Below are positions 1 to 60,922 of a stretch of DNA of 64,000 nucleotides, in pieces. The position numbers and the translations under genes are program-made. Within the stretch, counting starts at the first letter, position 1. Every line of letters starts with the position of its first letter. The DNA is taken from positions 1-64,000 of the IMG/VR virus record IMGVR_UViG_3300007520_000021, one strand, 5' to 3'. Source of the stretch: a virus. The notes under the pieces were generated by a model, which saw only the letters and a program-made list of their open reading frames with translations, made no database searches and had not been told where the DNA came from.

Positions 1-646
1 CTATATGGTGACCATTAGATAAATGTTTTTCTAAAATATCAAAACTATCATCAGTTTCATTAACAGAAAATACCTCACCATTTAATTTACCTATAGCAAA
101 CATAGTTACATAGCAATGTTCATAGTTTAATAATAACTCAACATCATCAGTAATTAATTTAATTTCATCACCATTTTTATTTTCAAAATTTAACGTTTTG
201 ATTAGGACAGTAAATTTATATTCTGGTTTTGCTATACCACCATTTAGGGTATATTCTAACACCTCATTTTTAAGTGAATCATCCATATATGGCTTTAATT
301 CTTTATATAGCTTTAATTCTTTATAGTGTTTAATGAATTCAGTTAAATAACTACCATCAGCATCTAAATTTTCTATATCCATATTGACACCAGTATTATT
401 AAACCATTCTTTGAACATATGATATACACTAATATAATCAGTTTCTTTAAACTCAGTATATAACTTTTTAGTTAAAGGTATAAAGAGTATTTCAAAATGA
501 CAATCACCCCATACAAGATTTTCCTCACCAATGTTTATTAAGTAATTAGTAAAATCTTCATATAATTGGGATAATTCTAATTCATTTTCTTTTGGTATCC
601 CTTCAAGGAAATACATTTTTTCATATTTCTCTACTAATTCTTTCAT
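1..646 (-). CDS. Hypothetical protein, truncated by window edge
   Basis: The frame is open for 215 codons from an ATG to the left edge with no stop, so the gene continues outside the window. I recognise no domain. The visible product is rich in Glu, Lys, Asp and Tyr, with no signal peptide or membrane segment. It begins about 50 nt after the second clpC fragment, where the C-terminal intein half and the last part of ClpC would be expected. No intein block B, F or G is visible in it. It may therefore be an ORF lodged between the two halves of a fractured gene, or an unrelated neighbour. Confidence 0.7.
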   Translation of the reverse strand, partial: MKELVEKYEKMYFLEGIPKENELELSQLYEDFTNYLINIGEENLVWGDCHFEILFIPLTKKLYTEFKETDYISVYHMFKEWFNNTGVNMDIENLDADGSYLTEFIKHYKELKLYKELKPYMDDSLKNEVLEYTLNGGIAKPEYKFTVLIKTLNFENKNGDEIKLITDDVELLLNYEHCYVTMFAIGKLNGEVFSVNETDDSFDILEKHLSNGHHI

Positions 647-652
647 ATTTTT

Positions 653-672
653 ATTTATTTATTTATTTATTT
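653..672. repeat. ATTT tandem repeat
   Basis: Five copies of ATTT form part of the leader of the partial gene at the left edge. On the coding strand it reads as an A-rich leader of AAAT units just before the ATG, as at many starts in this genome. Confidence 0.8.
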
Positions 673-698
673 ACAAAGTTAGGACTAATTGGTTTTGG

Positions 699-2177
699 TT
701 AATGTTTTATTCTATTTTTTAATTCATTAATATCAATTTCCTCAACTAAACTAGTGGTTTTACTTCTTATTACTATATTAGTATCACCAATAAAACATTT
801 ACCAACACCAGTAGGACCTAAAAATATGAATGAACCGATTGGTTTATTGTGATTACCGATACCTAACCTACTACGTCTAACTGCTTTAGATATTTTCGAT
901 ACGGCTTCATCTTGACCAATTATACGTTCTTTAAGTTCAATTTCCATGTTAGCTAATTTAAGGTTATCCTCAGCATTTAGTCTATTCATTGGAATACCAG
1001 TCATAGTTGAAACCACTTCACTAATCATATCCATAGTTATAACGGTTCTTTCCTTTTCAAGTGTATTCTGCCACTTCGTTTCAAACTTTTCTAACTCAGC
1101 TAACGTTTTTTTCTCATTATCACGAATTTTAGCTGCTTGTTCAAATTTTTGTAATTTAACGGTAGCTTCTTTCTCTTTTTTAATTTCAATTAGTTTATCT
1201 TTCAACTCTCTAATTTCAGATGGTAGTTCAATATTAATGTTAGTTGACGCACCAACCTCATCCATAATATCAATTGCTTTATCAGGCATAGCTCTATCTT
1301 GTATAAACCTATCGGCTAAAGTAACACACTCTAAAATAACCTCATCACTATATATTACCTTATGGAAGTCTTCATATTTATCTCTAATATTACTTAATAT
1401 AATGACAGTCTCATCAAATGTTGGTTCCTCAACTAAAACTTCTTGAAATCTCCTAGTCAAAGCACCATCGGTTTCAATATTTTCTCTATACTCGTCTAAA
1501 GTAGTTGCACCAATACATTGGATATCACCTCTAGATAAAGCTGGTTTGAAGATATTAGAAGCATCTAAAGACCCTGATGCGTTACCAGCTCCAACGATAG
1601 TATGTAATTCATCTATAAAAAGAATCACATCCTTATTACTAATCAATTCATCTAAAATGGCTTTCATTCTTTCTTCAAATTGACCTCTATATTTAGTTCC
1701 AGCTACTATCGTTGCTAATTCCAAACTAAATATTTTTTTACCTAATAACACTCTAGGTGCTGTACCATCGTGAATCATAAGTGCTAAACCTTCAACAATT
1801 GAGGTATTATGTGATAATATTTCATTAGTGTAATATCTTCTATCAGACCCCTCAGTTAATTCAAAATCATACATAATTTCTTCGTAACCTAAATCGGTAA
1901 CGCTCTCAACTACTACTACTACTGATGTATCATCACTATCAACGCAAATTTCATCCCCAATTGATAAATTCTTAAGGAAAACCTCATCCATATTATCTTT
2001 ATAGAACATAATGTGGTTATCAGCACATTTAAGTTCTTTACCATCATTTAATTTAAGTTTGTATACTTGATAAGGTATTGTTTCGTGTAACTTCTCAAGT
2101 TTAACAAAACCACTATCAGTTAATATACTAAAATCACTCATATCAAATGATTTGGTTATTTTTTTCAATTCTTCCAT
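699..2177 (-). CDS. clpC: Fractured ClpC middle piece: C-intein half, AAA+ core, N-intein half
   Basis: Residues 1-124 are the C-terminal part of a split intein: a block B-like CADNH near residue 55, a block F-like MYDFELTE, and a terminal SHN followed by Thr. Residues 125-460 are ClpC extein. They begin TSIVEGLA, completing Walker A of the first AAA+ domain, then Walker B FIDELH near 187-192, an arginine-finger region ALTRRF, a UVR-like coiled segment near 345-372, and a second-domain Walker A GPTGVGK. Residues 461-492 are a second N-intein half starting CFIGDT, then a stop. The start ATG lies 30 nt after the stop of the preceding fragment, in the same frame, with three in-frame TAA codons between. 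The product should work only after trans-splicing. Clp unfoldases remodel proteins with ATP. Confidence 0.88.
702..797 (-). other. Split intein 2, N-terminal half (ClpC second P-loop)
   Basis: 32 residues from Cys1 ([10 protein letters not shown], block A) to a stop. It directly follows GPTGVGK of the second AAA+ domain, where Thr normally comes next. No block B is present, so the intein cannot be complete in this ORF. The matching C-half was not found in the window. Confidence 0.82.
1806..2177 (-). other. Split intein 1, C-terminal half (ClpC first P-loop)
   Basis: 124 residues from an independent ATG to SHN. It contains the segment that normally follows block A ([13 protein letters not shown]), a B block with His near residue 55, and F and G blocks, with Thr as the +1 residue. 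Long C-half and short N-half match the atypically split inteins known from phage terminases, such as AceL-TerL. No endonuclease domain is seen. Confidence 0.85.
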
Positions 2178-2207: not shown

Positions 2208-3038
2208 TTATTTTATCGTCAAAAATGATTGGTCGTCATCTACTTGTAAAGATATTAACAATTCATTTATCGTTGTTTTAAAAACTTCGCCAGTTATGTC
2301 ATTACTCATAACCACCACAGTATCACCACAAACACATTTACCAACACCTGGTTCACCTATTAAGACTGGGTTGTTTTTCTTTCTTCTGGATAGAATTTGG
2401 GAAACTCTTTTTATCTCAGCTTCACGCCCAACAACTGGGTCAATTTTACCCTCACTAGCTTTATCTGTAATATTAGTACAGAAGCTGTCTAGGACTGGTG
2501 TCTTACTTTTTTTAACTTTAGTACTTGATGTGTTATTAGCATCAAAACTTCTTCTGTTGCTGTTTAGGTTTTCACCCTCAAAATCTTCGAAATCGCTCAT
2601 ATTGTTTTCTTTTATTAAATTTTTATAATTTTTATACGTAATCTTATGTTTAACCAAAATATTTGAAGCTGATGATGGTGTTTTTAGAATCGCTAACATT
2701 AGGTGGTTTATGTTAACCAATGTATTATTCATATTCTCACACTCCTCATCAACTAAAATGAATATCTTTTTAGTTTCTTGTGATGGCGGTATCACATTAT
2801 TATTTTTATCATATGGGTGGTTAATTCTACTTAAAGACAGTTTTTCATTTAAATCATTAAATAAATTATCAGTGTTAACTTTAAGCTTTTTTAATATCTC
2901 AACAGTTTCATTATTATCATCAACTAATATTGATATTAAAATATGTTCTGGTTTTAGAAAATTATCATTCCACACTGAAGCTTCAGATAATGCGTTGTCG
3001 ATTATTCCCTTAACCTTTGTTTCTATTTCTCTTGCCAT
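2208..3038 (-). CDS. clpC: Fractured ClpC N-terminal piece ending in N-intein half
   Basis: Residues 1-140 resemble the double Clp N-domain ([12 protein letters not shown], then [10 protein letters not shown]). A linker is followed by the start of the first AAA+ domain ([18 protein letters not shown]) and Walker A GEPGVGK at about 228-234. From Cys235 the sequence is an intein N-half running to the stop. Alone the product lacks Walker B and the rest of the ATPase. Its leader carries a host-like promoter (TTGTTT-N16-TATATT). A ClpC-type unfoldase in a phage is unusual. It might remodel host or virion proteins, but that is inference. Confidence 0.88.
2211..2336 (-). other. Split intein 1, N-terminal half (ClpC first P-loop)
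   Basis: 42 residues from Cys1 ([10 protein letters not shown], block A) to the stop. It directly follows GEPGVGK of the first AAA+ domain. Joining GEPGVGK to the TSIVEGLA of the next ORF restores a canonical Clp Walker A motif. Confidence 0.88.
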
Positions 3039-3143: not shown

Positions 3144-3578
3144 ATGTTAAAAAAGAGAGTTGAGATTGGTGGTAAAGTTAAATGTATATATCGGTCATCC
3201 AATATATTAGCATCTACTTACACTAAAGAGAGTAGTGAATTAGTAATAATATTTAATAATGGTGGTACTTACCTTTATAATGATGTTAAAGATAATGAGT
3301 ATATGAGGTTTGAAATTGCTGAGAGTCAAGGTAGTGTATTCAACTCCCATATAAAAACTAAGTCTTTCGAGAAAAAAGATAAAATTGATGTTAACAATAT
3401 TATTGAAGAATTAGAGAAAGTTGAGTTGATTGAAAGTGTAAAAATTAAAGAAGAGTTGATTAGCTCAATGAATTCACTCTCGGTTATATTCGAGACCACA
3501 GGTGAGGTTGACCGTCAATTGCTAAAAGATGTTGAGACTAATATTAGACTATTCAAGGGGGAGGTAATTAGTGAATAA
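3144..3578 (+). CDS. KTSC-domain protein
   Basis: Residues 12-72 match the small KTSC domain: YRSSNILASTYTKES, then IIFNNGGTYLYNDV, and the end ESQGSVFNSHIKTKSF. The molecular role of KTSC is unknown, though it is common in phages, sometimes fused to nucleic-acid enzymes. The remaining C-terminal part (75-144) is helical and charged. It overlaps the thymidylate synthase start by 8 nt, so the two are probably co-translated. A weak TATTTTTG element lies about 30 nt upstream. Confidence 0.75.
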   Translation: MLKKRVEIGGKVKCIYRSSNILASTYTKESSELVIIFNNGGTYLYNDVKDNEYMRFEIAESQGSVFNSHIKTKSFEKKDKIDVNNIIEELEKVELIESVKIKEELISSMNSLSVIFETTGEVDRQLLKDVETNIRLFKGEVISE

Positions 3579-4677
3579 GTTAGATAGAGATTATTTGTCG
3601 TTAATTAAAGATGTGTTAAAAAATGGTAATTATAAGGAAGGTAGAAATGGTGGGACTAGGAGTGTTTTTAGTAGACATATAAGACATAAAATGTCTGATG
3701 GGTTTCCATTACTTACAACTAAAAAAATGCCATGGAAGGTAATTGTTACCGAATTAATTTGGTTTTTAAGGGGTCATACCAACATTAAGGAATTACTTGA
3801 TAATAATTGTAACATTTGGAATGGTGATTCGTATGCTAATTATTTAAAAAAACAACCTAAATTTCAGGTTGGGGGAAACAATGTTGATTGCGGTCCTATG
3901 AATATTGAGGATTATATAAATAAAATAAAAACTGATGACTCATTTGCTAAAAAGTGGGGTGATTTGGGTAAAATATATGGTTCTCAATGGCGAAATTGGG
4001 GTGGTGAGGTTGATTATGATAAAGGTGAGTATAATTTTAAAGGTGGTATAGACCAAATACAAGTTGTCATTGATGAATTAAAGTCTAATCCAGATTCTAG
4101 GAGAATTTTTGTTAGTGCTTGGAATGTTGCGGAGTTAAGTGAAATGGTTTTACCACCATGTCATAATTTCTTTCAATTTTATACTAGGGTATTAAGTTAT
4201 GATGAGAGGGTTACCTTATTTAATAGTAAGGTAAATATTTTGAATCCGTATTTACCACCATTAAAAGAAACGCTAGAGCTTCATAATATACCAACAAGGG
4301 CGGTTTCACTATTATTTAATATGAGGAGTTCGGACGTTGGGTTGGGATTACCCTTTAATTTAGCATCCTATGGTTTATTATTAAAGTTAATCGGTGTTAT
4401 AGTAAATATGGTACCAGAAGAGTTAATCGCTAATTTGGGTGATGTTCATTTATACTCAAACCATATCGAACCAATTAAACCTCAGTTAAAGAGGAGAGGT
4501 AAGGTCTTACCTGATGTTTTAATAAGTTCTAAGTTTTTACCAAATGGTGACGGTGAAACTAGGTTTGGTGAGTTAGATTCGTCATTTCAAATTTTAATTA
4601 ATAATCTTGAAGTAGATGATTTTAAATTAATTAATTATAATTCACATGATAAAATTAAGTTGCCATTGAGTAATTAA
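3571..4677 (+). CDS. thyA: Thymidylate synthase (ThyA type)
   Basis: Makes dTMP from dUMP using methylene-tetrahydrofolate. Seen: folate/dUMP-site motifs (FPLLTTKKMPWKVIVTELIWFL), YGSQWRNWGG, DSRRIFVSAWN, the catalytic Cys in LPPCHNFFQFY, and RSSDVGLGLPFNLASYG. At 368 aa it exceeds bacterial ThyA (about 264) because of an insert of about 45 residues between QFYTR and the MRSSDVG motif. That insert shows no intein blocks. The start is GTG, preceded by GGGGGAGG, one of the few clear Shine-Dalgarno sites here. Together with dUTPase it supports dTTP supply for an AT-rich genome. A terminator follows. Confidence 0.93.
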   Translation: MNKLDRDYLSLIKDVLKNGNYKEGRNGGTRSVFSRHIRHKMSDGFPLLTTKKMPWKVIVTELIWFLRGHTNIKELLDNNCNIWNGDSYANYLKKQPKFQVGGNNVDCGPMNIEDYINKIKTDDSFAKKWGDLGKIYGSQWRNWGGEVDYDKGEYNFKGGIDQIQVVIDELKSNPDSRRIFVSAWNVAELSEMVLPPCHNFFQFYTRVLSYDERVTLFNSKVNILNPYLPPLKETLELHNIPTRAVSLLFNMRSSDVGLGLPFNLASYGLLLKLIGVIVNMVPEELIANLGDVHLYSNHIEPIKPQLKRRGKVLPDVLISSKFLPNGDGETRFGELDSSFQILINNLEVDDFKLINYNSHDKIKLPLSN

Positions 4678-4720
4678 AAACAATAAATTAAGTTGTAGTT
4701 TACAACAAAGTTAAAATAAA

Positions 4721-4750
4721 GCACCCAATCGGGTGCTTTTGCTTTTTACA
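4721..4750 (+). terminator. Rho-independent terminator after thyA
   Basis: GCACCC-AATC-GGGTGC stem-loop followed by TTTTGCTTTT. Confidence 0.85.
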
Positions 4751-4752
4751 TA

Positions 4753-4760
4753 ATATTTAT
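4753..4760 (+). promoter_or_regulatory. Candidate late-promoter element
   Basis: ATATTTAT, 20 nt before the start of the next virion-type gene and just after the thyA terminator. One of 14 similarly placed copies. Confidence 0.5.
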
Positions 4761-4780
4761 TATTAAAAATAAGATTTAAT

Positions 4781-5494
4781 ATGGAAAATAACAACATAAG
4801 ACCAAACGGTTTGCAAGGTAAAGATAAACTTTCTCGTATGATTGAGTTGATGGGTAAAACATCAATTAATGAAAATGTTACTAGGTCTGTAATTGAGTTA
4901 ACAAAAAAAGGTCCAGATGGTAATGTCTATGCTATTGTGAGAGAAAACCATAGTTATTTTATTAAAATTAGTACTAACAAGTCTAATTTAGTCATTGAAA
5001 ACTTCGAATATATTGGTGGTCTTAAAAATAAAACCGATAAATCTTTTGATAGTTATTCAAAGGCATTAAGACAATTAAATTTATCATTTATCAGCCTTGC
5101 TGAGGCTAACGGTAAATCTAGTGATATTAATGCATTTTTAAATGATAACTTAATTGAGGGTTTTGGTATTATTAGAGGTAAAGGACATGATGAGCATGTT
5201 ATGGGGTTAGATGGTGATAGTTCTGAAAATGAGGAAGATGTTGAATATGATGGGGAAGATTGTATGTCTGAAAATGACGAAACTATTGATGAGATGATTG
5301 GTGATGATAATGATATGATTGAAGAGAATTTCATTCAAAATAAAAGACTTAAAATTGTTGATACTCTATTAAATATAGATTCGGCTATAGCTGAATCAAC
5401 TAATGAAAGGGTTGAATTGTTAATAGAGAGTTTAAGTTTGTTATCTGAAAAAGAGCAGAAATTTTTATTAGCTAATTTAAAAAAAAAAAGTTAG
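4781..5494 (+). CDS. Conserved virion-type protein, zero-frame part
   Basis: Function not recognised. Residues 30-110 form a beta-rich domain (VIELTKKGPDGNVYAIVREN, then FEYIGGLKNK). A very acidic stretch follows, then a helical end. The frame ends just after an 11-A run, with SSLLxxL-type helices leading into poly-Lys. The -1 frame is open across the run and encodes more protein without its own start codon, so the real product is probably a fusion of about 595 aa. Position before the head genes and the upstream late element suggest a structural or assembly role. Confidence 0.72.
   Translation: MENNNIRPNGLQGKDKLSRMIELMGKTSINENVTRSVIELTKKGPDGNVYAIVRENHSYFIKISTNKSNLVIENFEYIGGLKNKTDKSFDSYSKALRQLNLSFISLAEANGKSSDINAFLNDNLIEGFGIIRGKGHDEHVMGLDGDSSENEEDVEYDGEDCMSENDETIDEMIGDDNDMIEENFIQNKRLKIVDTLLNIDSAIAESTNERVELLIESLSLLSEKEQKFLLANLKKKS
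5479..5489 (+). other. A11 run, candidate -1 frameshift or slippage site
   Basis: Eleven A residues near the end of the 237-codon ORF contain an in-phase A-AAA-AAA heptamer. A shift of -1 continues into an open frame of 359 residues. Polymerase slippage or a homopolymer base-call error would give the same pattern. Confidence 0.6.
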
Positions 5495-6567
5495 TCGAGA
5501 CTAAATATAAATTAAAAATAAATAACTCAAAACCACCTGAAGATAATTCAGGTGGTTTTGAAGATTCAAGTAACTCTGATGTTGACGCTGGTTTTGACGA
5601 TGCTTTAGCTAGTGATGGTGTTGACGATGGTGGTAGTGATAAACCTTTTGATGATGAACCTTTTGACGCTGGTGTTGAAAGTAATGAGGATGAAGACCCA
5701 AAGAAATATATTCAACAATTATCTGGGAAGTTAGGTCAATCAATTAGAGCTTACACTGATAAAGTGGGTCAGCCTGATTTAGAGTTAGAAAAATTCGCAA
5801 TAAATTCAGTTATATCAGCTACTCATTCAAGTGATATGACACCTGAGGATAAGCAAGATATTATTAAAAAAATTAATAATTCTGGTGATGATGATAATAC
5901 CGTAGATGGTGGTGATGAGCAAGGTGATAATACCGTAGATGGTGGTGGTGGTCACCAAGGTGGTGAGCAAGGTGGTGAACAAGGTGGTGAGCAAGATGAT
6001 TCTTCTGGGATTGAGGATTTTGAAAAGGCGTTAAATAGTGAGAGTGTTATCAACGAGAACTTAGATTCGGTAAGTTTTGTCAAATTTGTTGGTATGACTG
6101 ATGATGAAATTACTGTTATTTTAAATGTTAATGGTGAAAATAAATTAATTAAATTTTACAAGGAAGAACTTTTATCCCAACCAAGTTCTCATGATGAAAG
6201 TTGGTTCTACGCATATGATGGGGTTGATAGGGATGGCGTAAAGTATGAGGCTGTGGGTTCATTCTTGGGCCACCCAGATACTAACCTAGAGTTTGAGGAT
6301 ATTAGTGAATTTAGCGTTTCTAAAAAAAATGAAAGTTTTGTGGTTGAAAGTGGTATTGAAATATTACCAAAGGAACATAAACAAGTTTTTGTTAACGCTA
6401 AATTAGGTGTTAAAGAAAGTGTTGCTAGTAGAATTACAATTATTAAGAATGATGATGAGGTTGAGACACCAACTAAACCAAAAGTTAGCCCTAAAACGAT
6501 TCCGAGTAGGAGGGAAAAACCTTGGGTGGTTCCAATAATAAAACCACAACCAAAAGCTGTTAAGTAA
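5488..6567 (+). CDS. Conserved virion-type protein, -1-frame continuation
   Basis: The frame opens at 5476 and has no ATG before about residue 100. A GTG at 5764 falls inside a continuous motif (IQQLSGKLGQSIRAYTD, then ELEKFAINSVISAT), so it is not a credible start. Order: Asp/Gly-rich linker with DDEPFD-type repeats, the helical KLGQSIRAYTD domain, a GGEQ tandem-repeat linker, then a mixed domain ending in a Pro-rich basic tail. I infer it is the second half of the upstream gene's product. Its stop overlaps the next ATG (TAATGA), so translation is coupled. Confidence 0.68.
   Translation, partial: KLVETKYKLKINNSKPPEDNSGGFEDSSNSDVDAGFDDALASDGVDDGGSDKPFDDEPFDAGVESNEDEDPKKYIQQLSGKLGQSIRAYTDKVGQPDLELEKFAINSVISATHSSDMTPEDKQDIIKKINNSGDDDNTVDGGDEQGDNTVDGGGGHQGGEQGGEQGGEQDDSSGIEDFEKALNSESVINENLDSVSFVKFVGMTDDEITVILNVNGENKLIKFYKEELLSQPSSHDESWFYAYDGVDRDGVKYEAVGSFLGHPDTNLEFEDISEFSVSKKNESFVVESGIEILPKEHKQVFVNAKLGVKESVASRITIIKNDDEVETPTKPKVSPKTIPSRREKPWVVPIIKPQPKAVK
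5529..5559 (+). other. Strong 13-bp hairpin inside the -1 frame
   Basis: AAAACCACCTGAA pairs perfectly with TTCAGGTGGTTTT across a 5-nt loop. It looks like a terminator stem but has only four T residues, and it lies within coding sequence of the -1 frame. It starts about 40 nt after the slippery run, too far for a classical frameshift stimulator. It could reduce readthrough, or act as an attenuator. Confidence 0.55.
5955..5997 (+). repeat. GGEQ-coding 12-nt tandem repeats
   Basis: Near-identical 12-nt units coding Gly-Gly-Glu-Gln form a flexible linker in the -1-frame protein. Confidence 0.7.
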
Positions 6568-6989: not shown

Positions 6990-7770
6990 AATAAAAAAAC
7001 GAATTGTTGAGGCTAATAATAAAGGGGTTTATGGTTTACCAAAAACTAAACTTGTTGAGGATAGTTATGGTGAAGATAAGGTAATACCGTTAAGTAGGGT
7101 TTATTCAATCGCTAAAAAGGCTGGTGCTCATGTTTCTGATTGTGAAGATGATATACTTAATTTATACATGGTTTATTCGGACTCCATTGGTGTCCCAACG
7201 TCTAAAATTAAAGCGGTTTTAACTCATTATGATTTGAAATTCTCAGATTTGAAAGGACCTGAACCTAAATTAAAGCCTAGTGTTGAGTTTGCTCAACATT
7301 TTAACTCATCATTGGATGAGGATGAGGATGAGGATGTTAGTAGAGGTGTTGAACATGGTAGAAGTGAAACTGATGCGTCCAGATATGAGTGGGAAGAGCT
7401 ATATCGTAATATTAGTGGGGAAGCTGATGGTAGTGAGGAGTCTATTAAAGAAGTAGATGGGGAAGAAGAAGAAGAAGGTGGACTTAATGTTGGTGATTTA
7501 AGGAATGATGTTGCTAAGTTTATTGATAAACTTGGTTTATCTCAATTTGAATCTATTCTTAAAAAGATAAACACACCAATAGAGCAAGCTGAGGTAATAG
7601 CTGCGTTTGCTGAAAAGGTTGGCGTACCTAGAGTTAAATTAGGTGTAATCGTGAAACAATTAAGGGCCGTTGGTGAAGGTAATCTTATTAAAACTAGAGG
7701 TGGTTTAGTGAGTGAAGTTATAACTAAATCTGATTTATCAAAATCAATAAAAAGTAATAAAGATGAGTAA
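6979..7770 (+). CDS. Acidic hypothetical protein of the virion cluster
   Basis: 263 aa, no family recognised. Two similar helical modules flank an acidic centre: residues about 30-85 (VYSIAKKAGAHVSDCEDDIL, ending in KAVLTHYDLKFSDL) and about 175-245 (FIDKLGLSQFESILKKI, then VPRVKLGVIVKQLRAVG). The centre (about 105-170) is very Asp/Glu-rich, as in scaffold-like phage proteins. It overlaps both neighbours, implying coupled translation. Confidence 0.75.
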   Translation: MGNRIKKRIVEANNKGVYGLPKTKLVEDSYGEDKVIPLSRVYSIAKKAGAHVSDCEDDILNLYMVYSDSIGVPTSKIKAVLTHYDLKFSDLKGPEPKLKPSVEFAQHFNSSLDEDEDEDVSRGVEHGRSETDASRYEWEELYRNISGEADGSEESIKEVDGEEEEEGGLNVGDLRNDVAKFIDKLGLSQFESILKKINTPIEQAEVIAAFAEKVGVPRVKLGVIVKQLRAVGEGNLIKTRGGLVSEVITKSDLSKSIKSNKDE

Positions 7771-8956
7771 ATATAGGGAGATAGCTAGGAAAGCTTTGTT
7801 GAATAATTTCATAAAAAAACCTATAACTGAAGGTATGTTGTTGTACGATGAAAAGCATAATGAAAAAGTTAATGGTACATTATCGAAAGAATTAAGGGAT
7901 AGGAAACATTCATTAGGTAATCACCCTATATTTCCAGAGAGTGATGAATCTCATTTTGAAGAGAAATTAATATCAAAAAGGTTTGGTGATGTTCTTAAAA
8001 CCTATAAAAGACATTTCGAGGTTGATGAGATAGCGGATGTTGATGTTTATAATAATTCAGCTTCTATAATGAATAAAATCATACCAATTGAAAGTGAGTG
8101 TATGGGTGATTTAACTGAATTGGCTATCAGAATAGTTAGGGAGGAGTTTGATATGAGTGAAAATGATGTTTTAGTTGAGGCTGAAATTGTTAGTAAAATA
8201 ACTTTAAATGGTATTAATAAAAACCCAGCACCGATATCAATTGATGGGATGGAATTTGATAACCATGCTTCAATATCTAAAGCAAATAGTGAAGTTTATA
8301 AAAGAAGGTTTATTAATTCGTTGATTCAAGGTAGTGCTAATAAGTGTAACCACTTATTTCATATGTATGAAAGTGAGATAATGGACATTGACCATAAATT
8401 ACCAAGTTTATACGCTAAATTAGTTGTTGCGGTTGATTATAGTTATTTTATTAATGATGATTCAAGACCTAAATTAACTAGTGGTTTATCTGAAATAGAT
8501 TTTAATGATGAAAATAAACCAATTATTAAAGCACAAGCTTTAACATTCCCAATATTGGTCCATGAATTAGTTAAAGGTGCTATGGAGATATTATCCTTAC
8601 ACGGTTTACCTAAAGAGAGTAAGATGGTTGAATATGTATTAGGTAAAGCTGATTACCTAGCTGCTGAAACTTGGGATTTAAGGTTAGGTACTTGTTTATG
8701 GGAGAAATTTTTAGAGTCAATAGGTGATGATGATTACAAAATTAAACATCATATATTTCAAGATTTGATTAGCTTACCAGTTGATGAGTTTAACACGATA
8801 ATGAGGGAGGTTATGAGTGGTACTAAAGAAGGTCATGATATTATTGATGCGATATCTAATAATATTAAAGATGATTTGGATATGGAAGATGAAATAAATA
8901 ATGATAGGTTTAACTTAGATGATTTAGACGATTTATCGGTAGATGATTTTAATTAA
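7763..8956 (+). CDS. Hypothetical virion-type protein
   Basis: 397 aa, function not recognised. The N-terminus is basic and the C-terminus (from about 365) is strongly acidic, ending in DDLDDLSVDDFN. The middle is mixed alpha/beta, with segments such as ALTFPILVHELVKGAMEILS that resemble a helical core. No catalytic motif is visible. It is the last gene of the coupled cluster and is followed by a terminator, directly before the terminase gene. Confidence 0.77.
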   Translation: MSKYREIARKALLNNFIKKPITEGMLLYDEKHNEKVNGTLSKELRDRKHSLGNHPIFPESDESHFEEKLISKRFGDVLKTYKRHFEVDEIADVDVYNNSASIMNKIIPIESECMGDLTELAIRIVREEFDMSENDVLVEAEIVSKITLNGINKNPAPISIDGMEFDNHASISKANSEVYKRRFINSLIQGSANKCNHLFHMYESEIMDIDHKLPSLYAKLVVAVDYSYFINDDSRPKLTSGLSEIDFNDENKPIIKAQALTFPILVHELVKGAMEILSLHGLPKESKMVEYVLGKADYLAAETWDLRLGTCLWEKFLESIGDDDYKIKHHIFQDLISLPVDEFNTIMREVMSGTKEGHDIIDAISNNIKDDLDMEDEINNDRFNLDDLDDLSVDDFN

Positions 8957-8957
8957 T

Positions 8958-8990
8958 AAAAAGACTAGTTTTACTAGTCTTTTTATTTTT
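8958..8990 (+). terminator. Rho-independent terminator
   Basis: AAAAAGACTAG-TTTTA-CTAGTCTTTTT stem-loop followed by ATTTTT. Confidence 0.85.
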
Positions 8991-9012
8991 ATTAACATTT
9001 TAATTATAGATT

Positions 9013-9020
9013 GTATTTAT
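9013..9020 (+). promoter_or_regulatory. Candidate late-promoter element before terL
   Basis: GTATTTAT followed by TAATAAAAAA, 12 nt before the terminase start. Confidence 0.5.
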
Positions 9021-9032
9021 TAATAAAAAAAT

Positions 9033-12000
9033 ATGTTGACAAATGAAGAAATATTTGAAGAATATTTACTATGTTCTGAAGACCCAAAATACGCCATTGA
9101 AAAATATTTAAAAACTTTTGATAAAACCCAAGAGGGTTTTGTACCGTTTAAGTTGTTTAAAAAACAACGTGAAATTATTGATAATTATGAAAAATACCGT
9201 TTTAATTTAATAACAAAACCGAGACAAGCTGGTATATCAACAACAACACAAGCTTATGCTGCTATGAAATGTGTTTTTGCTGATAAAAATAACCCAGAAA
9301 CAATTATTGTTATCGCTAATAAGTTGACCCTAGCTAAGAAATTTGCTAAGGGTATTAAAGATTTTGTAGCTCAAATGCCAAGATGGGCTTGGGGGCCAGA
9401 ATATTATGGAACAAAGGAGAAGGAAAAGGTAACTATATTTGAAAAAGATTCTCAAATTGAGATAGAGTTAATTAACGGTAGTAAAATTATCGCTGTGGCA
9501 ACATCAACGGATGCGTTAAGGGGTTATACACCAACATTCCTTATATTTGATGAAGCAGCTTTTATCGATAAGGGTGCGGAATTATATGGTGCGGCCATCA
9601 CATCTTTAGGTTGTTTAACCAAAGAAAGTTTAATATTAACGGAAAATGGGTTAGTTGAATTAAATGAATTAGTTACCGAAAAAGATAATATTGGTTTTAC
9701 TGATTTAATTACACCACATAAAGTTTGTAATATGTATGGTAATATTGTCGATGCAACTCAAACTTTTGTTAGTGAATACGGTAAAACATTTAGATTTAAA
9801 ACAAAGTTAGGTATTGAATTAGAAGGTAGTTGGAAACACCCAATTTTAGTGAAAAGGGGATGTGATGATATTTGGGTTAAAATGAATGATTTAGTTGTTG
9901 GTGATGAACCAATAATACAGTACAATCAAAATTATTTTGGTGGTGATAGTTCTTTTAAATTCGAGTATAGTAAACGTAGTGATAATATAAATTTACCTAT
10001 AAAATTAGAAGATAATTTAAACTTCACCTATTTGTTAGGGTTATTCCTTAGTAAAGGTAATTTCACAACAAATGGTGTTACAATTACTAATATTGATGAA
10101 AATATTAGTGACTTTTTATTAAAAGATGAAGCTAATTTAGGTAATGAATTCAAAAAATCAGGTGATAAATATTTAACGTTTAACTCAAATGAGTTAATAG
10201 AGTGGTTTACCTTATTTGGTTTTAAAAAATGTAATGCTAGGGATAAAGAAATACCTTTAAACATTTTAAAGATGCCTAAAATGGTAATTAAGGCTTTCCT
10301 ACAAGGTTTATTTGATAGTGGTAGTGTTACTACACAAAAACATATTAAATACAGTGCAACATCAAAAAAATTAGTTAAGACATTACAGACATTATTATTG
10401 AATTTTGGAATAGTATCAAGTATTAAATATTCCAATGGTAAAAATGTTTGTGGTGTATATGATTTAAAAATACATTCGGAAGACGCTATTAAGTTTTACG
10501 ATGAAATTGGCTTTAGGTTGGAAATGAAACAAAATGGTCGAGATTTTTTATTAAATAAGATGGTAAATTCTGTATTTACATCAGTAATTGAAAATAAAAG
10601 TATATTCATAGATGAAATAGTTCTAGTTGAAGAATTTGAAGATTACACATACGATTTACACGTCCCAGATTCTAACTCATTTATATCAAACGGTGTTATA
10701 AGTCATAATACTGGTGGTAAATCAATTCTAATTTCAACCCCAAATGGGTATGACGCTTTGTATTATAAAACTTATGAGCAATCGATAAATGGTGATAATG
10801 ATTATAACATAATAGAAATGAAATGGTATCAAGACCCAAGATACAATAAAGATTTAAGATGGTTAAATAAAGAAGGGGTTTCATTTTCTGAGGTTGAGTT
10901 TACGCATGAGTCATACGAGGCTAGTTTGAGGGAAAACCTTAAACCAACCTCTAAGTGGTATGAGGATATGTGTAAGGGTATGAATAACGATAAGAGGAGA
11001 ATTTCCCAAGAGTTAGATGTATCATTTTTAGGTTCTGGTGGTAATGTAATAGACGATGAGTATATTATGATGCAAGAAAATTTAAATGTGTGTGACCCAA
11101 AGTTTATCGATAAGAAATATTTTGATGGTCAGTACGGTTTAATTTGGGTTTGGGATGAACCAATTGAAAAACATGAGTATATTATGGCTTGTTTACCTAT
11201 TGGTGAAAAAGTTTTAACTGAAAATGGGTTAGTTAATATAGAGGATGTTAAATTTAGTGATAAATTAATTGGGGAGAATGGTGAGTATGTTAATATTATT
11301 AACACTCAGATTTACCCAGTTGTTAATGAGGATGTTTATGAAGTTAAAATGAGTAACACCTTTAGAACTACTAAATTCACAAAAGAACACCCAATATTAA
11401 TTAGTAAACCAAATTTAGACCTTAATCATGAAAAAAATGATTTTAATTACACCAAAATGGAGAGTGTTGAAATTGGGGATTGGTGTAAGGTACCTAATAT
11501 TTATAAAAAAACAATTGAGGGGGTATTTGACGGTAAATGGGTTAGTAACCCTGATTTTGATAGTGATAACCCATTAGAGGTCTTAGATTTTTGGTGGTTT
11601 ATCGGAGTTTGGTTAGGTAATGGGCAATTAGATGACGTGAAAAACTCACATACTATGTCATTATCTTTTAATAAAACTGATACGGATAAAATGGATAAGT
11701 GTTTTTTGTTAATTAATAAAATTTTTAACGTGAAACCATCTGTAGTTGAGGAAGGTCCATTAGTGAATTTAGTATTCGATTCTAAGTTTTTATATTATTT
11801 TATATTAGAAAATTTTGGTGAGAATAAGGATAATAAAAAGATAGCAGAATGGGTTAAATTCACACCTAAAGAATATAAAGAAGAATTGTTAAGAGGGTGT
11901 TTGGGTAGTTCTTTATTAATAAATGTTGATAAAGATAGTCCTAAGATTTCATTTGTTAGCGTTAATTTAACTTTATTAGAGTCTATCCAAGATATTATTT

Positions 12001-13034
12001 TTTCATTAGGGGTGATATCGTCAATCAATAAATTAAAGGGTGATAAGCGAAAAGAGATTTATAATTTAAAATTAAGTAATTATAGTAGTTTAGAGTTAAT
12101 TAAATTATTATATGATGATTTAAATACATTTAGTTTTGTTGATGACGTAACTTTAAATAAGGGTTCTGTAAAATCATGTCATTTTGATGATGATAAAGAT
12201 TATATTTATTTTAGAGTTAACGATATAACTAGAAGTGAATACACTGGTAATGTATATAATTTTGAATGCGAAACGCATACTTTTATGTGTCATCATATAA
12301 CGACACATAATTGTGATGTTGCTAGGGGTGATGGTTCAGATAGTTCCACTTTTCAAATAATTGATTTCACAACTATGGAACAAGTTTGTGAGTATCAAGG
12401 TAAGATACAACCCGATTTATTCGCTGAAATTATTGATGACTATGGTAAGAGGTATAACGCTTATGTTGTGGTTGATAATATTGGTGTTGGTGGGACTACC
12501 GCTATGAGGTTAGAAGAAATGAAATACCCTAATTTACATTATGATGAATCTAAATCTAGGTTATTTAATACTAACACAAACCCTATAGATGATAAGAATA
12601 AAGTGCCAGGTTTTAACGTCAACGGAGTTAGACTTAATTTGGTTTCACTATTAGAGGAAAAGGTTAGAACTAACACCGTTAAGATTAGGTCTAAGAGGTT
12701 AATTAATGAAATGAGAACTTTCATATATAAAAACGCTAGACCTGACCATATGGAAGGTTATCACGATGATTGTTTAATGGCATTAGGTATGGGTTTATGG
12801 GTATTGGAGCATTCATTTAAAAAACTTAGAAAAGTATCAGAAATGACAAAATCTATGTTAAGTGGTTGGATAATGCCTAACAATAATATTGATAGTGTGG
12901 TTAATAGTGGGTTTGTACCTAAAGATAGTAAAAATAAAAAGTCTTTACCAAAACCTAAATTTTCAGCGGTAGTAGCTAAGAATATGCAAGACCCAAATGG
13001 TGATTATAGTTGGTTATTTAGTGGTTTCAAATAA
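9033..13034 (+). CDS. terL: Terminase large subunit with two inteins
   Basis: Packages DNA into the prohead with an ATPase motor and a nuclease. Walker A is KPRQAGIST (62-70) and Walker B FLIFDEAAF (169-177). Intein 1 starts at Cys194 and interrupts the chain just before TGGKSILISTPNG, the ATPase coupling motif. Intein 2 starts at Cys720, so splicing restores IMA-CDVARGDGSDSS, containing the first nuclease Asp. The later nuclease part includes AYVVVDNIGVGG and GYHDDCLMALGMG. Spliced length is about 593 aa, close to T4 gp17 (610). The gene begins the head module and has its own late-type element. Confidence 0.95.
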   Translation: MLTNEEIFEEYLLCSEDPKYAIEKYLKTFDKTQEGFVPFKLFKKQREIIDNYEKYRFNLITKPRQAGISTTTQAYAAMKCVFADKNNPETIIVIANKLTLAKKFAKGIKDFVAQMPRWAWGPEYYGTKEKEKVTIFEKDSQIEIELINGSKIIAVATSTDALRGYTPTFLIFDEAAFIDKGAELYGAAITSLGCLTKESLILTENGLVELNELVTEKDNIGFTDLITPHKVCNMYGNIVDATQTFVSEYGKTFRFKTKLGIELEGSWKHPILVKRGCDDIWVKMNDLVVGDEPIIQYNQNYFGGDSSFKFEYSKRSDNINLPIKLEDNLNFTYLLGLFLSKGNFTTNGVTITNIDENISDFLLKDEANLGNEFKKSGDKYLTFNSNELIEWFTLFGFKKCNARDKEIPLNILKMPKMVIKAFLQGLFDSGSVTTQKHIKYSATSKKLVKTLQTLLLNFGIVSSIKYSNGKNVCGVYDLKIHSEDAIKFYDEIGFRLEMKQNGRDFLLNKMVNSVFTSVIENKSIFIDEIVLVEEFEDYTYDLHVPDSNSFISNGVISHNTGGKSILISTPNGYDALYYKTYEQSINGDNDYNIIEMKWYQDPRYNKDLRWLNKEGVSFSEVEFTHESYEASLRENLKPTSKWYEDMCKGMNNDKRRISQELDVSFLGSGGNVIDDEYIMMQENLNVCDPKFIDKKYFDGQYGLIWVWDEPIEKHEYIMACLPIGEKVLTENGLVNIEDVKFSDKLIGENGEYVNIINTQIYPVVNEDVYEVKMSNTFRTTKFTKEHPILISKPNLDLNHEKNDFNYTKMESVEIGDWCKVPNIYKKTIEGVFDGKWVSNPDFDSDNPLEVLDFWWFIGVWLGNGQLDDVKNSHTMSLSFNKTDTDKMDKCFLLINKIFNVKPSVVEEGPLVNLVFDSKFLYYFILENFGENKDNKKIAEWVKFTPKEYKEELLRGCLGSSLLINVDKDSPKISFVSVNLTLLESIQDIIFSLGVISSINKLKGDKRKEIYNLKLSNYSSLELIKLLYDDLNTFSFVDDVTLNKGSVKSCHFDDDKDYIYFRVNDITRSEYTGNVYNFECETHTFMCHHITTHNCDVARGDGSDSSTFQIIDFTTMEQVCEYQGKIQPDLFAEIIDDYGKRYNAYVVVDNIGVGGTTAMRLEEMKYPNLHYDESKSRLFNTNTNPIDDKNKVPGFNVNGVRLNLVSLLEEKVRTNTVKIRSKRLINEMRTFIYKNARPDHMEGYHDDCLMALGMGLWVLEHSFKKLRKVSEMTKSMLSGWIMPNNNIDSVVNSGFVPKDSKNKKSLPKPKFSAVVAKNMQDPNGDYSWLFSGFK
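9612..10709 (+). other. TerL intein 1 (366 aa)
   Basis: Cys1 block A (CLTKESLIL), block B with LEGSWKHPIL, terminal SHN and Thr at +1. A LAGLIDADG-type endonuclease region is present, but the first motif reads LLGLFLSKG and the second LQGLFDSGS. The acidic catalytic positions look lost, so cleavage activity is doubtful. Confidence 0.9.
11190..12311 (+). other. TerL intein 2 (374 aa)
   Basis: Cys1 block A (CLPIGEKVLT), block B TKFTKEHPIL, block F VYNFECETHTFM, end THN with Cys at +1. The endonuclease region retains FIGVWLGNG and LLRGCLGSS, both without the expected Asp, suggesting decay. Insertion precedes the first nuclease Asp. Confidence 0.9.
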
Positions 13035-13350: not shown

Positions 13351-16300
13351 ATGTCAAATAATAATAAAACAGTTTTCCAGAAATTAAGTGATATATTCAC
13401 TAGAGATGGTGTTGCTATTAATAAACAAAATACTAATAGATATTCAATCGGTAATAATGAGATTTTAAGGACCTCATCAAAAGAAGAGTTTGAAACTGCT
13501 AAATTACAAGCACAACAAAAGAAATATTTGAGTAAAAATTGGGCTAAGATTGATAGTGAAATGTTTCAAAAGTCAGTTCATTATGAGACAACTCGTGTTG
13601 GTTCCTATTCCGATTTTGAAAATATGGAATTTTACCCTGAAATAGCAGCAGCTTTAGATATAATGATGGAAGAGTCTACAACCGTAAATAATTATGGTAA
13701 GGTTCTTAATATATATTCAAATAGTAAAAGGGTTAAAACAATTTTAGAAGATTTAATGTTCAGTAAATTGGATTTACACACTAATCTACCAATGTGGACT
13801 AGGAATACCCCTATTAGGGAGGATAGTATTATACCATTATTAGATGGAACTGAAGTAACTATTAAGGTGTTATCCGAAATGGTTAAAAATGGTGAGGAAG
13901 TTTGGAGTTATTCAATTCAAGATGAAACAAAAGCTATTGTACCTAGTAAAATAACATGGTGTGATTTAACTAGAAAAGATAGTGAGCTATATAGGGTAAC
14001 ATTAGACGATGGGACATATATTGATACCACACCAGACCATGAGTATATGCTTAGAGATGGGTCATTTAAAAGAGCCGATGAATTAATCGAAGGCCAACCT
14101 TTAATGCCTTTCCACACAAAAAAAAGTGAAAATAAAATAGATTCTATTGGTGGTTATGAGAAAGTTTATAACCCATCAAGTATCAAATATAGGTTTACAC
14201 ACTCTATGGTTTCAAATCAATGTATTAGGGACTTAGTTTACGAAAAATCTATTGGGGGCCAATTTGTTACGCATCACATAGATTTTAATAAATTAAATAA
14301 CACCCCTAGTAATTTAATAAGGTTAACATGTTCATATAATTTAAAATTACCTGTAGAACATTTTGATAAAACATTAGACTCACCAGAGGTTACCAAAAAA
14401 AAGGTGGGTGGGGTAAATGTATTTTCAGTTGAAAAGTTAACTGAAACTTCAGACGTATATTGTTTAGAAGCTGTTGGCCCTAATGGAGAACAAGATAGAC
14501 ATAATTTCCCAGTTTGTAGTAAAGACTCTAATAGTCAATACGTTAGAGGTGGTGTGTTTTTATCCAACTGTAAATATGGTGATAATTTTTTACACCTAAA
14601 TATAGATGATAAGAAAGGTGTTATCGGTGTTAGGCAATTACCAAATTTTGAGATAGAACGAAGAGATTTCGATTTTTTCGAAAATATGGGTGTTGCAAAT
14701 TCAGATGATAGTAATAATAAAACAAAGTTTCTTTGGAAGGGTAGAGATGTTGTGTTTAATTCTTGGCAAATAGCCCATTTTAGGTTATTAGGTGATGATA
14801 GAAAATTACCTTACGGTACCTCAGTGTTAGAGAAGGCTAGGCTAATTTGGAAACAATTACGTTTATCAGAGGATGCTATGTTGATTTATCGTGTAACTAG
14901 AGCACCAGAAAGACGTGTATATAAAATATTTGTTGGGAACATAGATAATGAGGATGTTGAATCTTATGTTAATGATATCGCTAATAAATTTAAAAGAACA
15001 CCATTGATTGACGCACAAACTGGTCAGATGGATTTAAGGTATAACCAAATGGGTTATGACCAAGATATATTCATACCTACTAGAACTGAAAACGCTGAAA
15101 CACCAATAGATACACTACCAGGTGCATGTATCGCATTAGATACCAGAATACCATTATTAGATGGTAGAACATTAGAGTTAAGTGAAATAATAAGTGAATG
15201 GGATAATGGTAATAAAGATATGTTGGTTTACTCTTGTGACCCTAATACAGGTGCCATGGCCCCAGGGATTATAACATGGGCTGGTGAAACTAGAATGAAC
15301 ACTGAAGTTATGAAAATAACGTTAGATAATGGTGAGTCTATCACAACAACACCTGACCATAAATGGGTACATAGAACCAAAGGATTCGTTGAGGCTCAAG
15401 ATTTGGTTGTTGGTGATTCATTAATGCCTTTCTATAGAGATACTAATGAACGTGAGAAAGTTTGGGATTCAGCTAAACAAGAGTGGGTATTTACATATAT
15501 AATGGTTAATGATTTTACAAAAAATGAAGGCGTTGAAAATAAAATGTCCGATGCTGAGGCTAATTATAACCATAAAATAATTACTATTGAATTTCTGGAA
15601 TTGAAGCAAGATACTGGTACAATTACCGTAGATGGTGATGAATTATACCATAATTACCACACATTCGCAACAGAAGCTGGAGTGTTTATTAAAAATTCTA
15701 ATCTAGACCAAATAGCTGATATTGAGTATTTACAAAGGAAATTATTCACAGCTTTAAGAGTACCTAAATCGTTTTTGGGTTTTGATGAGGCGACTGGTGA
15801 AGGTAAGAACTTAGCTTTACAAGATATTCGTTTTTCCAGAACGATTAATAGGATTCAACAATCTATGATTCAGGAGCTAAATAAGATTGCGATTATCCAC
15901 CTATACCTTTTAGGTTTTGAGGATGATTTAGATAACTTTACATTAACACTTAATAACCCATCAACACAAGCTGAAATGCTTAAAGTAGAGCATTTGGGTA
16001 ATAAATTTGATGTTTATAAGAACGCTGTGAGTGATGCTGGTAATGGTTTTGCCACAATGTCAATGACTAGGGCCAAGCGTGATATATTAGGTTGGAGTGC
16101 TGACGAGATAAAGCAAGATTTAATTGAACAAAGAATGGAAAAGGCCGCTGCTTCCGAATTAGAAAACACTTCTAACGTAATTAAACATACGGGTTATTTT
16201 GACACGGTTGATAAGATTTATGGTGATATGGATGTTGCGCTAAAAGGTGGTGGCGGTGAAGATGATGCTGATGTTGATAGTGAAGGTGGTTCACCTGATG

Positions 16301-16716
16301 GTGGCGGTTTCGGAGGTGGTTTCAGTGATGATGCTGGTGGTGATGATTTAGATTTCGGTGATGAGGATGATACCATTGAAGATGATGCTATTGAAGGTGG
16401 AACTGACGATGCTATTGAAGGTGGAGCTGATGATGCTGCTGAGGATGGTGAGGGTGATGACTTCTCGTTTGAATCTAAAACACTTAGAAGTAATTTAATT
16501 AATGAGAAAATTGGTGAGCGAAAGTTAATCTTAAATAAAAAATTAGAAAATCGTAAGGGTAAGTACGTTAAAAATTATTTAAATAAATTAATTGAGTCGG
16601 TTACTATTAATGGTGTTGATGACACGGTAGAGCGTAACATTGATTCTAAAAATGAAAAAATAAATAGTAACATCAATAAAATGATGATTGAAATAGATAA
16701 AAAATTAAAAGAGTAA
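13351..16716 (+). CDS. Portal vertex protein (gp20-like) with two inteins
   Basis: Forms the portal ring through which DNA enters the head. Portal-type extein sequence includes YPEIAAALDIMMEES near the start, LHTNLPMWTRN, CKYGDNFLHL, PNFEIERRDFDFF, the APERRVYKIFVGN region, and IADIEYLQRKLFTALRVPK. Two inteins interrupt the core. Spliced length is about 678 aa, longer than T4 gp20 (524), partly from a Gly/Asp-rich acidic C-terminal stretch (about 965-1035 unspliced) and a basic tail. It follows the terminase gene, as expected for a head module. Confidence 0.93.
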   Translation: MSNNNKTVFQKLSDIFTRDGVAINKQNTNRYSIGNNEILRTSSKEEFETAKLQAQQKKYLSKNWAKIDSEMFQKSVHYETTRVGSYSDFENMEFYPEIAAALDIMMEESTTVNNYGKVLNIYSNSKRVKTILEDLMFSKLDLHTNLPMWTRNTPIREDSIIPLLDGTEVTIKVLSEMVKNGEEVWSYSIQDETKAIVPSKITWCDLTRKDSELYRVTLDDGTYIDTTPDHEYMLRDGSFKRADELIEGQPLMPFHTKKSENKIDSIGGYEKVYNPSSIKYRFTHSMVSNQCIRDLVYEKSIGGQFVTHHIDFNKLNNTPSNLIRLTCSYNLKLPVEHFDKTLDSPEVTKKKVGGVNVFSVEKLTETSDVYCLEAVGPNGEQDRHNFPVCSKDSNSQYVRGGVFLSNCKYGDNFLHLNIDDKKGVIGVRQLPNFEIERRDFDFFENMGVANSDDSNNKTKFLWKGRDVVFNSWQIAHFRLLGDDRKLPYGTSVLEKARLIWKQLRLSEDAMLIYRVTRAPERRVYKIFVGNIDNEDVESYVNDIANKFKRTPLIDAQTGQMDLRYNQMGYDQDIFIPTRTENAETPIDTLPGACIALDTRIPLLDGRTLELSEIISEWDNGNKDMLVYSCDPNTGAMAPGIITWAGETRMNTEVMKITLDNGESITTTPDHKWVHRTKGFVEAQDLVVGDSLMPFYRDTNEREKVWDSAKQEWVFTYIMVNDFTKNEGVENKMSDAEANYNHKIITIEFLELKQDTGTITVDGDELYHNYHTFATEAGVFIKNSNLDQIADIEYLQRKLFTALRVPKSFLGFDEATGEGKNLALQDIRFSRTINRIQQSMIQELNKIAIIHLYLLGFEDDLDNFTLTLNNPSTQAEMLKVEHLGNKFDVYKNAVSDAGNGFATMSMTRAKRDILGWSADEIKQDLIEQRMEKAAASELENTSNVIKHTGYFDTVDKIYGDMDVALKGGGGEDDADVDSEGGSPDGGGFGGGFSDDAGGDDLDFGDEDDTIEDDAIEGGTDDAIEGGADDAAEDGEGDDFSFESKTLRSNLINEKIGERKLILNKKLENRKGKYVKNYLNKLIESVTINGVDDTVERNIDSKNEKINSNINKMMIEIDKKLKE
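13810..14568 (+). other. Portal intein 1 (253 aa), no N-terminal Cys, HNH domain
   Basis: Aligning block A (EDSIIPLLDG) with portal intein 2 (CIALDTRIPLLDG) puts Pro at position 1, after MWTRNT. Block B is intact (TTPDHEYML). Block F reads DVYCLEAVGP, with Cys at the position used as a nucleophile in class 3 inteins. The end is FLSN before Cys. An HNH-type endonuclease segment reads THHIDFNKLNNTPSNL. The N boundary could be off by one residue. Confidence 0.78.
15127..15696 (+). other. Portal intein 2, mini-intein (190 aa)
   Basis: Starts CIALDTRIPLLDG, block B TTTPDHKWV, ends GVFIKN before Ser. No endonuclease domain fits in 190 aa. The penultimate residue is Lys rather than His. Splicing restores TLPGA-SNLDQIADIEYL. 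Confidence 0.87.
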
Positions 16717-60655: not shown

Positions 60656-60922
60656 CTAATTATTACTCAATAATTTATTTATAATTGAAAAAGCTTGGTC
60701 TATTGTTTTAAAGCTAGTTTCAGGTACCAATATTAATTTATCAACCATTAATATTGGTACATAATCTAGTTTAACACTTTTACCTAAAAATTCCACTTCA
60801 TCTTTATTTTTAACATCATCTATATCATAATCTATAAACTCAATACCATCGTTTATTAATAAATTTTTTATCTTGTCACAATAAGAGCAAGATTTAACAC
60901 TAAACACTTTAACTCTCATCAT
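60656..60922 (-). CDS. Glutaredoxin
   Basis: About 88 aa from the ATG (a TTG one codon earlier is less likely). Thioredoxin fold with SCSYCDKIKNLL (CxxC), then FIDYDIDDV, the cis-Pro region LDYVPILMVD and a C-terminal helix. Reduces disulfides, for example in phage ribonucleotide reductase or glutathione. Overlaps the helicase end by 14 nt. Confidence 0.88.
   Translation of the reverse strand: MMRVKVFSVKSCSYCDKIKNLLINDGIEFIDYDIDDVKNKDEVEFLGKSVKLDYVPILMVDKLILVPETSFKTIDQAFSIINKLLSNN

Follow-up and report, generated by a model that had tools for sequence, protein, structure and literature searches.

The window analyzed here comprises bases 1–64000 of the linear 94,460-base virus record IMGVR_UViG_3300007520_000021, and its left end carries, on the minus strand, pieces of a gene for a ClpC-type ATPase together with halves of split inteins. 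With good confidence, we propose that this ClpC would be trans-spliced from three polypeptides, the last of them encoded by a gene that would start at position 646 and be cut by the contig end, and that a homing endonuclease gene, once located between the halves of the second intein, would have been lost by deletion. According to this scheme, a T4-like phage would carry the gene for a double-ring AAA+ ATPase in pieces, each of the two Walker A motifs (GVGK^T) being interrupted by an atypically split intein. These two inteins would be homologous to each other, with N-terminal halves (IntN) of 32–42 residues and C-terminal halves (IntC) of about 124 residues or more. Polypeptide 1 would consist of the Clp N-domain and IntN1; polypeptide 2 of IntC1, the first nucleotide-binding domain (NBD1), the middle domain and IntN2; and polypeptide 3 of a passenger domain, IntC2 and the second nucleotide-binding domain (NBD2) with the C-domain. 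Pairing of IntN1 with IntC1 and of IntN2 with IntC2 would enable two trans-splicing reactions to rebuild both ATP-binding loops in one ClpC chain, the passenger domain being released together with the excised second intein.

Two broken Walker A sites in ClpC

Both N-halves and the C-half of the first intein can be read directly in the window, where fragment 1 is encoded by an open reading frame (ORF) at 2208–3038 and fragment 2 by an ORF at 699–2177, both on the minus strand. The fragment 1 extein (2337–3038; Pfam Clp_N, E = 1.4e-13, as well as ClpA/ClpB profiles) covers the Clp N-domain and the start of NBD1, ends in GEPGVGK, and is followed by the 42-residue IntN1 of the first Walker A (CVCGDT...; 2211–2336), recovered at E = 2.8e-14 by a profile of site-1 N-halves built without the window. 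Fragment 2 begins with the 124-residue IntC1 (1806–2177; PF14890 stretches at 1941–2180 and 1806–1922, homologues in nine loci), which ends in ILSHN before T. Its extein (798–1805; TIGR03346, E = 1.7e-113) extends from this T, next after the first GVGK, through NBD1 and the middle domain into the start of NBD2 as far as GPTGVGK, and is followed by the 32-residue IntN2 (CFIGDT...RIKH; 702–797) and a stop. The first fracture is complete in the window, with IntN1 and IntC1 on separate ORFs, whereas most of NBD2 would be encoded past the end of the contig.

The initial annotation had read the end of fragment 2 as GPTGVGK plus 32 residues of a new N-intein half, and this reading is borne out. We built a profile from 21 N-halves of site 2 in other contigs, leaving out the window; searched against all six-frame translations of the contig, it retrieved IntN2 at E = 1.3e-14, with the site-1 half of the same phage as a runner-up (0.002). 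Cys1 of IntN2 immediately follows the extein, and block A is present. As far as sequence can tell, a second split-intein N-half at the second Walker A of ClpC is confirmed far beyond chance. The C-terminus RIKH* recurs in relatives (L015, L023, L030, L100 and L109, with KIKH* in L018), so that the stop of fragment 2 is no sequencing error.

The complete three-piece architecture, with ClpC encoded by three ORFs and both inteins split, is present in five other viral contigs (L015, L109, L128, L023 and L105), in the first three of which both breaks are at GVGK^T sites. L015 may serve as an example: fragment 1 (7377–8201) is followed by fragment 2 (8259–9737, ending CFTSHT...RIKH*), by a 493-residue endonuclease-like ORF (9823–11304), and by fragment 3 (11325–12584), which carries a C-half (...ILSHN^TYLAKLLAEYM) and then the ClpC C-domain. 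Each gap of L128 holds its own endonuclease-like ORF. L023 and L105 combine the split site 2 with a different split intein, inserted a little further upstream within the first Walker A (GEPG^CGKT). This intein represents a second, distinct split family at the first Walker A, characterized by Cys at +1 and a 24-residue IntN (L023, L031, L059, L066, L074, L082 and L105). In L018, only the site-2 intein is split, and site 1 is occupied by a contiguous one. Of the remaining contigs, some are broken at a single site, L020 carries an unsplit intein at site 2, and L038 lacks inteins at either site. Overall, the split second site is present in about twenty contigs. Assembly of ClpC from three polypeptides, as suggested in the initial annotation, is thus well supported by the five contigs that contain all pieces; the order implied by two "successive" splicing events is not established.

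The contig end and the putative partner gene

The partner of IntN2 had been noted as missing, and indeed no ClpC C-domain is found elsewhere in the 94,460-base contig. Since window base 1 is also record base 1, this absence is an end-of-contig effect (the record is truncated there) and provides no evidence of loss. The site-2 C-half of this phage would fall off the contig; an HN^T C-half is present in about twenty relatives. A search for sequence to the left of base 1 with an exact 41-base pattern matched only L095, which ends at the same base. The two contigs are identical over the last 123 bases and show two differences in the first 244, but they diverge much more elsewhere (a synonymous difference of 0.45 in IntC1), a pattern that would fit an assembly break at a stretch that two related phages have in common and may have exchanged recently.

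What the contig does retain behind fragment 2 is an ORF of 215 residues (2–646, minus strand), open at the contig end. As previously noted, this ORF lacks intein blocks; it has no Pfam or NCBIfam match, and its PHROG match is at chance level only. A possible identity as an endonuclease was considered and rejected, as no family match was found and the ORF is instead a relative of a passenger domain of L022, L095 and L097. Over its last 100 residues, the ORF shares 66% identity with the start of an L022 ORF (11019–12680) that runs in frame from the passenger domain through IntC2 into the ClpC C-domain. In L095, the passenger domain is fused in frame behind IntN2, at the usual place of the endonuclease inside the intein. 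Other N-terminal extensions before the C-half are found in the fragment-3 genes of L021, L030, L103 and L128. An alignment scan detected the passenger domain in four viral contigs besides the window and no more, and its predicted structure (predicted local distance difference test, pLDDT, of 48) is too low in confidence, so that no fold search was based on it. Most likely, the missing partner gene (passenger, IntC2 and ClpC C-domain) begins with this ORF, as in L022, where the domain is fused to IntC2-ClpC. The earlier suggestion that an unrelated ORF, often an endonuclease, could separate the halves therefore probably does not apply to it.

The junction itself retains traces of both neighbors. 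Between IntN2 and the ORF from 646 lies a leader of 58 bases (644–701, containing the fragment 2 stop, a spacer and the start codon), which is hybrid by local alignments scoring above all shuffles. Spacer bases 1–33 align to the post-IntN2 leader of L018, L023, L100 and L109, which are loci with an endonuclease or its remnant (scores 20.5–25.5, shuffled maxima 12.5–14), and bases 21–47 align to the leader that precedes fragment 3 in L109 (24.5 vs. a shuffled maximum of 17), the two alignments overlapping in TAACTTTGTAAA. The simplest reading is that a deletion removed the endonuclease and placed the fragment-3 leader right behind IntN2. No free-standing homing endonuclease gene is found in the window between 2177 and 2208 or between 699 and 646; an endonuclease gene is present between the halves in L015, L018, L021, L022, L030, L105 and L128, and these endonucleases weakly match DUF559 and MTES_1575. 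L107, where about 80 bases between the genes hold (by eye) the 3' end of an endonuclease gene, looks like an independent loss. Between IntN2 and fragment 3 of L109 (4484–6506), the endonuclease has shrunk to a 113-residue ORF accompanied by a cytosine-methyltransferase-like ORF (5200–6141, by eye). The general Bacteroidetes-type promoter box TAnnTTTG precedes 4 of 54 ORFs in the window vs. 2.7 expected by shuffling, and hence we make no genome-wide promoter claim; it is commoner among the fragment-3 leaders (7 of 17, plus the window), which are homologous and, thus, not independent.

Several observations weigh against the proposed three-piece assembly with a partner gene starting at 646. Neither IntC2 nor the ClpC C-domain is seen for this phage, and both would lie beyond the contig end; the ratio of nonsynonymous to synonymous substitution rates (dN/dS) of the 32-codon IntN2 is 0.36–0.81 in the pairs computed, a range that is weakly constrained or uncertain; and the fusion to fragment 3 is not certain, because in L096/L097 the passenger domain is a complete, free-standing 250-residue gene among structural genes. 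The last of these, along with small unrelated ORFs between the halves in L018, L022 and L109, would agree with an alternative in which the ORF from 646 stands alone as a gene and the true fragment 3 is separate and located further left, with ClpC still trans-spliced from three pieces. We regard this arrangement as improbable, given that the passenger domain is in frame with IntC2 in L022 and with IntN2 in L095, and that the leader of the ORF from 646 matches a fragment-3 leader. Least probable of all appears to be a dead gene, in which fragment 3 was lost and the other pieces are decaying: the 94 kb of contig without a C-domain would be expected from it, but the contig ends inside the next gene, the 768 codons contain no frameshifts, and dN/dS is low for the fragment 2 extein (~0.2 vs. 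L015 and L109), fragment 1 (0.28–0.35) and IntC1 (0.15–0.19). Fragment 2 and IntC1 are under purifying selection (dN/dS 0.15–0.2).

Proposed pairing of two homologous inteins

Within one phage, IntC1 and IntC2 are 53–67% identical, and both breaks are at GVGK^T. Judging from anatomy, pairing of IntN1 with IntC2 would ligate fragments 1 and 3 directly and restore a Walker A motif at their junction, and pairing of IntN2 with IntC1 would close fragment 2 on itself. One may ask whether the inteins cross-react by design, with a single-ring ATPase (N-domain plus NBD2) and a circularized fragment 2 as functional alternative products, an idea that gains from the reported interchangeability of the halves of the related GOS-TerL and AceL-TerL inteins (PMC11766414). 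We consider it very unlikely, because the positions that distinguish the two sites, most of them charged, are invariably conserved and persist even in a mosaic half from L016, which suggests selection for separate pairing.

These positions are columns whose residues do not overlap between the two sites. In the N-half they are N13 (D at site 1 vs. K at site 2) and N19; in the C-half they are C20, C25, C34 (K at site 1 vs. D at site 2) and C37. Among related inteins hosted by terminase, DnaB-like and clamp-loader genes (hosts named by eye), all those with both halves recovered combine K13 with either D or N at position 34, and the site-1 pair D13/K34, thus, looks derived. An out-of-sample scan yielded L190, L191, L192 and L194, all with K13 and D or N at 34; this fits the charge rule but is no test of its site-1 half, as no new site-1 pairs were found. 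In the tree of C-halves, eight site-1 halves form one clade (100/99), and one, from L016, falls inside site 2 (99/92). The latter (8213–8614) is a mosaic of the two sites, nearest to site 1 in columns 20–40 (0.77 vs. 0.63) and to site 2 in columns 40–140 (0.85–0.88, closest to L114), while its last 20 columns do not discriminate; it provides evidence of exchange between insertion sites. The swap of D13/K34 for K13/D34 may block cross-splicing, a suggestion that draws chiefly on a single evolutionary change and a single mosaic. More tentatively still, and as a possibility we would not yet favor, the locus might represent natural tandem trans-splicing by two paralogous split inteins that occupy corresponding Walker A positions in one protein and became mutually orthogonal through a reciprocal swap of charges (D13-K34 vs. 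K13-D34), one that survived gene conversion of the remaining intein sequence.

Relation to known inteins and implications

Dassa et al. 2009 reportedly described fractured genes, that is, phage enzyme genes broken by split inteins, the two halves being separated by a free-standing endonuclease gene. The system described here likewise involves an interrupted phage enzyme gene, and in its relatives a separate endonuclease gene divides the intein halves; it differs in that two homologous inteins break a single gene so that three polypeptides result, and in that the window has no endonuclease and shows a passenger domain apparently joined to the partner gene.

The sizes of IntN2, IntN1 and IntC1 (32, 42 and 124 residues) place them in the class of atypically split inteins, such as AceL-TerL, GOS-TerL, Cat and VidaL, which have a short IntN (25–37 residues) and a long IntC (104–115 residues) (PMC11766414; PDB 6vgv, 6dsl). 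Kinship is evident for the contiguous site-2 homologue of L020, whose well-modelled structure (pLDDT 83) has VidaL as the best solved match by fold (E = 5.9e-9), and which matches CatC (E = 3.1e-5) and VidaL (0.0022) by sequence; the N-halves, misplaced by MAFFT when aligned with C-halves, were left out of structure prediction. Insertion in a Walker A is likewise shared with terminase relatives, whereas the ClpC host, the Thr at +1 and the presence of two such inteins in one protein are differences. Three segments joined by two split inteins have been engineered as tandem trans-splicing (PMC12707363), with unrelated orthogonal inteins rather than the natural close homologues of the present case. 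Mycobacterium DnaB (PMC6195587) also has two inteins in one ATPase, but these are contiguous inteins in one protein, not described there as splitting the gene into separate ORFs. The known parts are, thus, atypically split inteins and fractured phage genes, and what is new is that a single protein is interrupted twice by inteins homologous to each other. The literature searched, which did not include Dassa et al. 2009, yielded neither a natural case with three polypeptides nor a split intein in ClpC, and priority is not established. A scan of prokaryotic genomes with the site-2 C-half found no relative, so this route gave no host.

The phage of the window is unusually rich in inteins. Further ones are found in the terminase large subunit (9033–13034, with a LAGLIDADG domain), the T4-type portal (13351–16716, two Intein_splicing stretches) and, weakly, the prohead protease (18960–20693), and a SNF2/UvsW-like helicase ORF (60909–63695, minus strand), whose middle matches Hom_end and LAGLIDADG_3 weakly (below cut-off), probably contains another. 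An intervening ORF (4301–5017) carrying NUMOD1 and I-HmuI-like domains splits the thymidylate synthase gene of L095 (3926–5801), with no Rfam intron match at gathering score; the counterpart of this gene in the window (3571–4677) is intact.

Assembly of three segments via two split inteins is a laboratory goal that needs inteins that do not cross-react, and these phages appear to manage it with close relatives of one intein at two equivalent sites of one protein, where cross-splicing would yield a truncated or circular, yet plausible, ATPase. The natural pairs make intein orthogonality testable, and the range of states found (empty, contiguous, split with endonuclease and split without) shows how the breaking of a gene can proceed stepwise.
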